Under the pieces are notes generated by a model. The model ran no database searches. It was not told the origin of the DNA and saw only the letters and a list, made by a program, of their open reading frames with translations. The position numbers were made by a program, and so were the translations under genes. A DNA stretch of 64,000 nucleotides from an uncultured Eubacteriales bacterium (GTDB lineage Bacteria > Bacillota > Clostridia > Christensenellales > Aristaeellaceae): NCBI GenBank assembly GCA_902778055.1, contig CACYWL010000004.1:62406-126405 (forward strand). Direction: 5' to 3'. Below are positions 57,004 through 61,390 of the stretch, piece after piece (position 1 is the stretch's first letter; each line of letters begins with the position of its first letter).

Positions 57004-57762
57004 ATGCGGATACTGCTGATCCGGCACGGCGAGCCGGACTATACGACGGATACGCTGACTCCGACGGGAAGACGGGAGGCGGAGCTGCTGAGCCGGCGGA
57101 TGGCGGCCTACCATATCCGGGATTACTATGTCTCCCCGCTGGGAAGGGCGCGGGAAACCGCGGAATATACCCTGCGCGCTGCGGGACGGGAGGCGGAAAT
57201 ACTCCCCTGGCTGGCGGAATTCCGGGCGAGATACTACGACGCCGAGGCCGGCCATGAGCGAATCTGCTGGGATCTGAAGCCGCGGGTCTGGACGGCTCAC
57301 CCGGAGCTGGCGGATCCGGAGAACTGGGCAGATTCTCCCGTGTACGCGGGCGGCAATGCGCGGGAGGTCTGGGAGGAAACCAGAAGCGGGGTGGATGCCC
57401 TGATGTCCCGGTACGGATTCCGAAGGGACGGAGCGGTCTGGCTGAGCGAGCATAACTGCCGGGATACGATCGCCCTGTTCTGCCATTTCGGGATCTCGAT
57501 GGCCGTGCTGGCCTGCCTGCAGGGCTGCTCTCCCGTGCCGCTGTGGCATCGGATGATGACGCTGACCTCCTCCCTGACGGAGGTCGTGACGGAGGAGAGA
57601 ATTCCCGGCGAGGTGTTCTTCCGGGTGACCCGGCTGGGAGATATCTCCCACCTGGAGTCCGCCGGGGAAAGAAGATCGACGGCGGGGCTCTTCCCGGAAT
57701 GCTACACCGGAGTGGATTCCACGGATCCCGGGACCAATCTGGAGAAACCCTGGGAGCTGTAA
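57004..57762 (+). CDS. Histidine phosphatase family protein
   Basis: 252 residues. LLIRHGEPDYT at the start carries the phospho-acceptor histidine (R7-H8-G9), the second active-site histidine lies in ALFCHFGISMAVLA (about 164), and YVSPLGRARETAEY is the conserved arginine region. It dephosphorylates small phosphate esters; the substrate is unknown. The ATG at 57004 lies behind GGAGAGGAAAG; longer open reading upstream belongs to the acetyltransferase in another frame. Confidence 0.87.
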   Translation: MRILLIRHGEPDYTTDTLTPTGRREAELLSRRMAAYHIRDYYVSPLGRARETAEYTLRAAGREAEILPWLAEFRARYYDAEAGHERICWDLKPRVWTAHPELADPENWADSPVYAGGNAREVWEETRSGVDALMSRYGFRRDGAVWLSEHNCRDTIALFCHFGISMAVLACLQGCSPVPLWHRMMTLTSSLTEVVTEERIPGEVFFRVTRLGDISHLESAGERRSTAGLFPECYTGVDSTDPGTNLEKPWEL

Positions 57763-57790: not shown

Positions 57791-57821
57791 GGATGACTGT
57801 TCCGCGAAAAAGCCGTCATCC
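57791..57821 (+). other. Hairpin before the esterase-mutarotase gene
   Basis: Perfect 7-bp arms GGATGAC and GTCATCC, 17 nt apart, in the 108-nt gap after the phosphatase. No T-run. It may be a weak attenuator or processing site. Confidence 0.3.
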
Positions 57822-57870
57822 TGCGGGACGGGAACACGATGCAATTCTGAAAGAGGAGGAGAGGAAAGAC

Positions 57871-58860
57871 ATGCGTACGATTTATCTGATCGGAGATTCC
57901 ACGGTGGATGACAATCAGCCGCCCTTCCGGGGATGGGGATGGGCGCTGCCCAGGTTTGTGCGGGAGGACGTCACCGTAAAGAACCATGCCCTCAGCGGAC
58001 GATCCAGCAAGAGCTTCTGGGATGAGAAGCTGTTCGAACCCGTGGAGGCGGAGATGGGAGCGGGGGATCTGCTGCTGATCCAGTTTGGCCACAACGACGA
58101 GAAGGACGATGCCGAGCGGCACACGGATCCGGAAACGACCTATCCGGAGTATCTGAACCGCTATATCGACGCCGCGGTGCGGAAAGGGGCCCAGCCCGTG
58201 CTGATCACCCCGGTGGCCCGGCGCTTCTTCGCCGGGGAAAGCAGCGTGCTGTATACCCACGGGGAATATCCCCGGGCGGTGCGCCTGCTGGCGGAGAAAC
58301 GGGGGATTCCGCTGATTGAGCTGAAGCTCCGCAGCCGGGAGCTCTATCTGAAGCTGGGGCAGGAGGGCGCGGCGAAGCTCTTCGTGCAGCTGAAGCCCGG
58401 GGAGAATCCGGACTTCCCGGAGGGGCACGATGACAAGACGCATTTCAATGCCTACGGCGCGGATCGGATCGCGGCCCTGGTGGCGGAGGAAATGAGGAAG
58501 ATTCCGGAATGCCGGGACTGGGTGAAGCCGGAGGAGAACCGGATGGAAAGGTTCGCGTGGAAGGGAAGGATCAAGGAGGGCATGCAGGCGGAATACAAGC
58601 GCCGGCATGACGAAATCTGGCCGGAGATGCTGGCCCTGCTGAAGAGCGCGGGCATCAGGAACTACTCCATCTGGAGCGACGGCCGGGATGTATTCGGCTA
58701 CTATGAATGCGAGCAGGGCATCGAATTCGCGGAGAAGACCCAGGCGGGAAGCCCGATCGTGGACCGGTGGAACGAATACATGGATGACGTGCTGGAGCTG
58801 GTCATGGATCCGGAAACCGGCGCACAGCCGAAGCTGAAGCAGATGTTCTTTCTGGAATGA
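57871..58860 (+). CDS. Fusion: SGNH rhamnogalacturonan acetylesterase and L-rhamnose mutarotase
   Basis: 329 residues. Part 1 (1-215): SGNH esterase with YLIGDSTVDDN (S10), GRSSKSF, QFGHND (71-76) and DKTHFNAYG (D188, H191), as in rhamnogalacturonan acetylesterases of pectin breakdown. Part 2 (about 224-329): a RhaM-type L-rhamnose mutarotase, with YKRRHDEIWPEM, NYSIW, the segment DVFGYYE and RWNEYM, followed by the conserved FFLE end. The two steps, removing acetyl groups from pectin and turning released L-rhamnose, are linked in one polypeptide. No signal peptide, so it acts inside the cell. Start at 57871 after AGGAGGAGAGG. Confidence 0.9.
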   Translation: MRTIYLIGDSTVDDNQPPFRGWGWALPRFVREDVTVKNHALSGRSSKSFWDEKLFEPVEAEMGAGDLLLIQFGHNDEKDDAERHTDPETTYPEYLNRYIDAAVRKGAQPVLITPVARRFFAGESSVLYTHGEYPRAVRLLAEKRGIPLIELKLRSRELYLKLGQEGAAKLFVQLKPGENPDFPEGHDDKTHFNAYGADRIAALVAEEMRKIPECRDWVKPEENRMERFAWKGRIKEGMQAEYKRRHDEIWPEMLALLKSAGIRNYSIWSDGRDVFGYYECEQGIEFAEKTQAGSPIVDRWNEYMDDVLELVMDPETGAQPKLKQMFFLE

Positions 58861-58948: not shown

Positions 58949-61390
58949 ATGAAATTCGGACATTTTGATGACAAAGCCCGGGAATATGTGATCGAGACGC
59001 CCCGGACGCCGTATCCCTGGATCAACTATCTGGGATGCGAGAAATTCTTCGGAATCATCAGCAATACGGCCGGCGGATACTGCTTTTACCGGGACGCCCG
59101 GCTGCGCAGAATCACGCGGTACCGTTATAACAATATGCCCGTGGACAACGGGGGCCGTTACTTCTATATCAAGGACGGGGACACGGTCTGGAATCCGGGC
59201 TGGAAGCCCGTCAAGACCGAGCTGGATGAATACTCCTGCCAGCACGGCATGGGCTATACGATCATCACCGGAAAGAAGAACGGGCTGACGGCCAGCCAGC
59301 GCTCCTTCGTGCCCATGGGCTTCGATGCTGAGGTGCATCAGATCACCCTGAAGAACGAATCCGGCGCGGAGAAGGACGTGATCCTGACCAGCTTCGTGGA
59401 ATTCTGCCTGTGGAACGCCCAGGACGATATGCTGAACTTCCAGCGGAACTTCTCCACGGGCGAGGTCGAGGTCGAGGACGGCGTCATCTATCACAAGACC
59501 GAGTACCGCGAGCGGAGAAATCATTATTCCTTCTATGCCGTGAACACGCCGATCGACGGGTTTGACACGGATATGGAAACCTTCCTGGGCCTGTACAACG
59601 GCTTCGAGAATCCCCAGGCCGTCCTGACCGGGAAGATGGGCAATTCCATCGCCTCCGGATGGCAGCCCATGGCGGCGCACCAGATCAAGGTGCACCTGGC
59701 GGCCGGCGAGGAGAAGAAATTCAACTTCGTGCTGGGCTATGTGGAGCTGCCGAACGAGGAAAAGTGGGCGGCCCCGGGCATCATCAACAAGAAGCCCGCG
59801 AAGGAGCTGCTGAAGAGCCTGACCACCGACGCCCAGATCGAGGAGAAATTCCAGCAGCTGCGGAAGCACTGGGACAACCTGCTGAGCGCCTATACGCTGA
59901 AGACGGACAACGAGAAGCTGGGCCGGATGGTCAATATCTGGAATCCTTATCAGTGCATGGTGACCTTCAACATGAGCCGGAGCACCTCCATGTTTGAGAG
60001 CGGCATCGGCCGGGGCATGGGCTTCCGCGATTCCAGCCAGGATCTGCTGGGCTTTGTGCACCAGATTCCGGAGCGGGCGAGGGAGCGGATTCTCGACATC
60101 GCCGCGACCCAGTTCCGGGACGGCGGATGCTACCACCAGTATCAGCCCCTGACCAAGAAGGGCAACAATGACATCGGCGGCGGCTTCGGAGACGATCCGC
60201 TGTGGCTGATTGCGGGCACGGCCGCCTATATCAAGGAGACCGGGGATTTCGGAATCCTGGACGCCACGACTCCCTATGACTGCAATCCCGAGGACTGCGG
60301 GACGCTGCTGGAGCACCTGGAGGTCAGCCTGGAGCACGTGATTCAGAACCGCGGCCCCCACGGGCTGCCGCTGATCGGCCGGGCGGACTGGAACGACTGC
60401 CTGAACCTGAACTGCTACAGCGATACGCCGGATGAGAGCTTCCAGACCTTCTCCAACCCCAACGCGCCGGACGATCGCGTCGCGGAGAGCGTGCTGATCG
60501 CCGGCATGTTCGTATCCATCGGGCCGGAGCTGGTCGCCCTGGAGCGGAGGCTGGGCCGGACGGAGAAGGCGGAGGAGTATCAGAAGGCCATCGACGACAT
60601 GACCGCGGCTGTCGAGAAGGACGGCTGGGACGGCGAATGGTTTGTCCGCGCCTATGATGCCATGGGCCACAAGGTGGGCTCCAAAGAGTGCGAGGACGGC
60701 AAGATTTACATCGAAAGCCAGGGCTACTGCGTCATGGCCGGCATCGGCCTGCAGGACGGCAAGGCGGAGAAGGCGCTGGAGAGCGTCCACAAATACCTGG
60801 AGACCGAACACGGCATCGTGCTGCTGCAGCCGGCCTATAAGGAATACCATCTGGAGCTGGGCGAGGTGAGCTCCTATCCCGGCGGATACAAGGAGAACGC
60901 GGGCATTTTCTGCCACAACAACCCCTGGATTATCGCCGCCGAAACCGTGGTCGGACACGGGGACCGGGCCTTCGACCTGTACAGCCGGATCGCTCCCGCC
61001 TGGCGGGAGGAAATCTCCGATCTGCATAAGATGGAGCCCTACGTCTACAGTCAGATGATTGCAGGAAAGGATGCTCCGCATTTCGGTCAGGCAAAGAACT
61101 CCTGGCTGACGGGCACCGCGGCCTGGAACTTCTACGTTATCAGCAATTACATTCTCGGCATCAAGCCGGACTGGGACGGACTGAAAATCGATCCCTGCAT
61201 TCCGCACGTGTGGGACGGCTACTCCGTCAGCCGCCGTTTCCGCGGCGCGGTCTATGAGATCGAGATCAAAAACCCGGCGCATGTCTGCCGGGGCGTGAAG
61301 CAGATCACCGTGGACGGAAAGACCGTGGACGGGAACGTGATTCCCGCTTTCCCGGACGGAACGCATCAGGTGGAGGTTATCCTGGGATAA
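58949..61390 (+). CDS. Cellobiose phosphorylase-type glycoside phosphorylase (GH94)
   Basis: 813 residues, the usual length of cellobiose phosphorylase. The start [15 protein letters not shown], the YPWINYLG segment, the catalytic DWND (480-483, aspartate as general acid), GFRDSSQD and [16 protein letters not shown] are family blocks. It splits cellobiose with phosphate into glucose-1-phosphate and glucose in the cytoplasm, saving one ATP. Its promoter and ribosome site (GGAGGGG) place the start at 58949. It sits next to the pectin enzyme, consistent with plant cell-wall use; specificity for cellobiose over similar disaccharides is inferred from close length and motif match. Confidence 0.92.

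Follow-up and report, generated by a model that had tools for sequence, protein, structure and literature searches.

A CE12-type rhamnogalacturonan acetylesterase and an L-rhamnose-mutarotase-type domain joined in one reading frame of a gut bacterium

L-Rhamnose mutarotases of the RhaM/YiiL/RhaU family (PF05336; solved structures 1x8d and 2qlw) are normally free proteins of about 105 aa, and RhaM/YiiL proteins form dimers. The rhamnogalacturonan acetylesterases (RGAEs) belong to the CE12 enzymes, exemplified by the Aspergillus aculeatus enzyme (1deo), Bacillus subtilis YesT and YxiM (2o14). In PMC10189120, YesT is named as a CE12 enzyme and appears as a rhamnogalacturonan acetyl esterase in a cited title. 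PMC3870299 describes the place of the mutarotase in the rhamnose pathway as well as RhaEW, a bifunctional rhamnulose-phosphate aldolase/lactaldehyde dehydrogenase.

Here, we analyse a 64,000-nt stretch of DNA (the window) from the draft genome of a gut bacterium (G000, 52 contigs), in which an RGAE and a RhaM domain occupy a single open reading frame (ORF). The enzymes are ordinary and their combination is new; the fusion is real, rare and recurrent. We found no report of an RGAE::RhaM fusion in the open PMC literature, outside which most subscription journals lie.

One frame, two domains

The fused gene and its surroundings comprise the following features:

57004..57762, + strand, histidine phosphatase (branch 1; PF00300), the upstream neighbour
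57853..57861, + strand, Shine-Dalgarno (SD) sequence GAGGAGGAG of the fused gene, with an anti-SD duplex of -12.0 kcal/mol (start at 57871)
57871..58860, + strand, fused ORF RGAE-A::RhaM, an uninterrupted frame of 329 aa plus stop
57871..58527, + strand, CE12-type RGAE domain, residues 1-219 (PF13472/PF00657; Foldseek match 1deo)
58528..58542, + strand, junction or linker PEENR, residues 220-224, including the rhaM SD GGAGGAG at 58530-58536
58543..58857, + strand, L-rhamnose-mutarotase-type domain (RhaM), residues 225-329 (PF05336), beginning at the ancestral rhaM ATG
58949..61390, + strand, GH94 phosphorylase (PF17167/PF06165), the downstream neighbour

An earlier note on this DNA had read the ORF as a pectin deacetylase fused to an L-rhamnose mutarotase. 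The presence of both domains in one chain is confirmed: a Pfam search returned PF13472/PF00657 together with PF05336, all above the curated cut-offs, and in this genome as well as in a second one (G014) the two domains share one uninterrupted frame. Although an upstream ATG at 57793 would also keep the ORF open, its SD pairing is weak (-3.5 versus -12.0 kcal/mol), and we therefore prefer the start at 57871. Since each half matches separate genes of related genomes, at 57-73% identity for RGAE-A and 81-92% for RhaM, the pairing is not a chance one.

Within the esterase half, residues 4-203 match PF13472 (5.8e-12) and PF00657 (3.9e-07) above the curated Pfam cut-offs. The SGNH residues G8, D9 and S10 (GDS), G43, G73 and N75 (GHND) and D188 and H191 (DKTH) are invariant across the 15 rows of alignment A3, so that the GDS serine, the block II glycine, the GxND asparagine and the DxxH aspartate and histidine of CE12/GDSL acetylesterases are all in place. 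In the structural model, residues 21-220 mostly reach a pLDDT of 85-98, values being lower around 11-20 and 121-130, and Foldseek placed Aspergillus RGAE (1deo) as the best solved match (E 1.5e-14; TM 0.79 by target length), a protein also matched by sequence (phmmer, 4.5e-10). The esterase call of the earlier note stands, and "pectin deacetylase" is better replaced by CE12-type rhamnogalacturonan acetylesterase. Because the GDS motif already lies at residues 8-10, a signal peptide could not be accommodated, in line with the proposed cytoplasmic location. However, the unfused RGAE-A relatives in A3 likewise begin at the GDS motif, and the absence of a signal peptide is therefore not special to the fusion. 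On genome context, deacetylation of RG-I is the putative activity of this half.

The C-terminal half matches PF05336 over residues 227-326 (5.8e-24; 84.8 bits versus a cut-off of 23.4), covering profile positions 1-103 of 105. As its score lies below the cut-off of the L-rhamnose mutarotase equivalog TIGR02625 (59.5 versus 99.6 bits), we file it as a PF05336 domain with L-rhamnose as its putative substrate, which qualifies the original annotation. A3 holds no other RhaM rows, which explains the low confidence of the RhaM half in the A3-based model; the domain was modelled separately and reached a mean pLDDT of 91.7. Segment 223-233, at the junction, is a low-confidence stretch of the A3-based model. 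(The modelling alignments were A3 and A5; the mixed-row A2, in which RGAE C termini were misplaced, and A4 were left out.) E. coli YiiL with L-rhamnose (1x8d) was the best Foldseek match (E 9.8e-08), and an L-fucose mutarotase (7byu) ranked third behind YiiL. Tyr18 and His22 in YiiL numbering, which we take to be active-site residues, are invariant in the 22 rows of A5; His246 of the fused protein aligns with YiiL His22. The predicted activity of the RhaM half is α/β anomerisation of L-rhamnose.

The usual locus in relatives and the empty slots

In the genus, rhaM and RGAE-A are normally separate and lie at opposite ends of one rhamnogalacturonan locus, with the order rhaM-GH105-ABC-ABC-SBP-polysaccharide deacetylase-PL22-like-RGAE-A-(TIM)-RGAE-B in most genus loci read. 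Relatives thus carry both genes beside a GH105 enzyme, an ABC importer and a PL22-like protein, which bears out the proposal that both domains are tied to one polysaccharide. The GH105 gene was identified by PF07470 and by its solved GH105/YteR relatives. The PL22-like gene, directly 5′ of RGAE-A in many relatives, gives a partial match to PL22 oligogalacturonate lyase (PF14583, 7.4e-12; L149:11444-12514). GH105 is immediately preceded in this locus by a GH112-type gene of the lacto-N-biose phosphorylase family (PF09508; L196:7866-10052), at this position presumably a galactosyl-rhamnose phosphorylase.

In the window's genome, this locus lies on another contig (C20) and runs unbroken from the GH112-type phosphorylase (PF09508) via GH105 to RGAE-B, with neither rhaM nor RGAE-A. 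About 120 bp separate the GH112-type gene from GH105 where rhaM would be expected, and about 120 bp lie between the PL22-like gene and RGAE-B in place of RGAE-A. The sole rhaM found in the genome is the fused copy on contig C4, and no second copy of RGAE-A was found there; rhaD, an isomerase-like gene and rhaB are located on contig C33.

The GH94 gene downstream of the fusion has matches at E <= 1e-100 in 43 of the 45 genus genomes. An empty site was seen in G044 (L200), in which the window's upstream genes stand directly before GH94, with neither the histidine phosphatase nor the fusion; it is the single genome, among 12 GH94 regions (L199-L210), to keep this upstream block. The histidine phosphatase was absent from the other GH94 regions read as well, and it may have been acquired along with the fusion.

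A whole-protein search gave matches in 36 of the 45 genus genomes. By hand count from the match table, rhaM is free in 30 of the 45 and fused in two, and a full-length search recovered the fusion in the same two of 308 family genomes (G000 and G014). The RGAE-A::RhaM form itself occurs in the window's genome only. In an order sample (396) and a phylum sample (398), the fusion appeared only in the window's genome, G014 not being among the matches; among the matches listed in a contig search (79 loci), it appeared only in L003. Having the same length (114271) and gene order as G014 contig C58, L003 was treated as the same genome, and L023 likewise as the same genome as G107.

Several candidates were discarded. 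Long rhaM frames in G061, G240 and G297 carry upstream parts that by eye are low-complexity shadow sequence and lack an RGAE match. L028 and L030, matching query residues 1-309, are RGAE::GH105 fusions truncated at contig ends, and in L030 rhaM is a gene of its own. In five loci examined among the longer RGAE frames (351-420 aa) of the phylum sample, the extra sequence is N-terminal and is not RhaM. Nor is the fusion tightly linked to a replaced isomerase: the isomerase-like gene occurs in 17 of the 45 genus genomes, mostly unfused. This 474-aa protein, encoded between rhaB and rhaD (L141:12324-13748, L197:5810-7231), scores 29.2 bits against a Fucose_iso_C cut-off of 29.3, and phmmer gave no solved relative. 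Among five genomes examined, RhaA (PF06134) was found in G021, G032 and G007 and not in G000 or G014. The 474-aa protein is a candidate L-rhamnose isomerase of an additional type.

A second fusion and translated ribosome-binding sites

The search for the same architecture that the earlier note had called for was rewarded by G014, in which RhaM is joined to the paralogue RGAE-B, 39% identical to the window's RGAE, with an unfused RGAE-A just upstream. Here, too, there is one rhaM match in the genome. Downstream follow a deacetylase gene, rhaB, an isomerase-like gene and rhaD, the last scoring above the cut-off of NF002963 (rhamnulose-1-phosphate aldolase). This second fusion in another genome makes a frameshift or an assembly join, which the note had named as its refutation, unlikely.

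In the RGAE tree, the window's copy groups with the RGAE-A rows (SH-aLRT 100) and the fused copy of G014 falls into the RGAE-B set (97). The two fused RhaM copies are not sisters in the RhaM tree; as this tree is poorly resolved (105 columns), the case for independence rests on the RGAE halves. Since different paralogues are involved (A in G000, B in G014), the RGAE::RhaM fusion very probably arose twice, as judged from these sequences. Two independent events are the simplest reading; alternatively, a single fusion may have been followed by exchange of the RGAE half.

Members of the RGAE-A family are also fused, at the same end, to GH105. This RGAE::GH105 protein (576 aa; L023:10001-11731, also L024, L026 and L027) was found full-length in seven genomes (G107, G220 with two copies, G252, G057, G247, G187 and G273) upon searching 300 family genomes, with one more copy cut by contig ends (G131). 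Its carriers belong to genera g25 and g14, other than that of the window, and the RGAE parts of six such loci form one tree group (SH-aLRT 93).

Every junction examined passes through the ribosome-binding site (RBS) of the downstream gene into an intact ATG. In the window, GGAGGAG AACCGG precedes the rhaM ATG at 58543; in G014, AAGGAGG AAGGAAAC precedes it; and in RGAE::GH105, of which four junctions were scored (L023, L024, L026, L027), AAAGGAG stands before the GH105 ATG. As the junction bases are thus the SD sequence in front of the downstream ATG, the linker is a translated RBS. The window's internal SD pairs at -9.5 kcal/mol, a value inside the span of 43 free rhaM starts (-13.4 to -7.3 kcal/mol). 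Of 300 other in-frame ATGs inside window genes, 11 pair equally well or better, making the site strong but not unique. Because both SD and ATG of rhaM are intact inside the ORF, it is plausible that free RhaM is also made from the internal start at 58543.

For the RhaM half, pairwise dN/dS is about 0.1 in two comparisons, with a free copy and with the fused copy of G014 (dN 0.07-0.08, dS 0.71-0.73); dS was unusable in a third, again with a free copy. For the RGAE half it is 0.14-0.25 in three comparisons. All these values include time before the fusion.

Origin, benefit and relation to known systems

Taken together, we consider it probable (roughly 0.7) that this is a real, lineage-specific fusion in which loss of the stop codon of RGAE-A ahead of rhaM gave rise to a bifunctional protein, with joint production as the likeliest benefit. 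We infer the activities and substrates, the order of events, the dual products and the benefit as follows. The cytoplasmic RGAE paralogue A would have lost its stop codon directly 5′ of rhaM, such that translation continues through the rhaM RBS into rhaM. The N-terminal domain would deacetylate imported rhamnogalacturonan oligosaccharides, letting GH105 and rhamnosidases work, and the C-terminal domain would interconvert the α and β anomers of the finally released L-rhamnose for the isomerase. The cell would most likely gain joint production in a fixed ratio, and RhaM might in addition dimerise the esterase. Substrate channelling is less likely than joint production, because the two reactions do not follow one another directly.

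The fusion could instead be a neutral accident, a tolerated read-through in a cell that mainly uses RhaM from the internal start and derives no special benefit from the fused protein. The intact SD and ATG at the junction, a short acidic linker that is simply the translated RBS, and the rarity of the fusion (2/308) fit such an origin. Yet the family holds at least three kinds of RGAE fusion, in each case with a partner from the same pathway, and two genera have retained RGAE::GH105; we regard neutrality as a serious though doubtful explanation.

Alternatively, the RhaM half might act on another 6-deoxy sugar such as L-fucose, in which case the two halves would not serve one polysaccharide. The missed TIGR02625 cut-off and the membership of the L-fucose mutarotase 7byu in the same fold family leave room for this. 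However, in relatives the free rhaM belongs to the RG-I locus and in several loci adjoins rhaB, and the G014 fusion lies close upstream of rhaB and rhaD, which renders a different sugar improbable.

That assembly or binning joined two separate genes into a chimera is very unlikely: although the sequence comes from a 52-contig draft and the RGAE-A join is unique among the 45 genus genomes, the join is in frame and falls exactly at the rhaM RBS and ATG, the RGAE retains its usual full length, an unbroken contig of this genome shows both usual positions vacant, no second rhaM or RGAE-A was found in the genome, and the same architecture recurs with the other paralogue in another genome. Finally, a RhaM part serving mainly as a dimerisation module, its mutarotase activity not needed, would exploit the dimeric nature of RhaM/YiiL and a short linker able to hold two esterases together, but the fused copy retains the counterparts of YiiL Tyr18/His22 along with the other invariant columns, and no further rhaM was found in this genome, making this highly improbable.

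Beyond the preferred reading of stop loss with joint production, we tentatively suggest RGAE to be a recurrent fusion hub, in which at least three fusions arose by read-through of a downstream RBS and may code for both a bifunctional protein and the free downstream enzyme. If true, one catabolic locus would show how adjacent operon genes can repeatedly turn into a fusion protein via a two-product intermediate. The recurrence with another paralogue, together with the parallel fusion to GH105, offers natural material for testing how neighbouring operon genes become fused and whether the RBS within the junction stays functional.

With regard to described systems, the window's protein resembles the CE12 enzymes in its SGNH fold and catalytic residues and differs from them by the C-terminal RhaM domain; CE12-like proteins with extra sequence read in other Bacillota bear an N-terminal extension that is not RhaM. 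It shares with RhaM/YiiL/RhaU a full-length domain, the fold and the conserved Tyr and His, whereas its copy is joined to an esterase and scores below the TIGR02625 cut-off. RGAE::GH105 (L023 and others; genera g14 and g25) is alike in its RGAE-A family member, fused at the same end via a translated RBS, with GH105 (PF07470) rather than RhaM as the partner. RhaEW (PMC3870299) is similar in being a fusion of two rhamnose-catabolism enzymes; however, it joins consecutive steps, whereas a polysaccharide esterase and a monosaccharide mutarotase do not act consecutively. The fusion adds a domain combination that links a monosaccharide mutarotase to breakdown of the pectin backbone: bifunctional catabolic fusions were already known as a kind, and the pairing of RGAE with RhaM is a new and recurring form of it.
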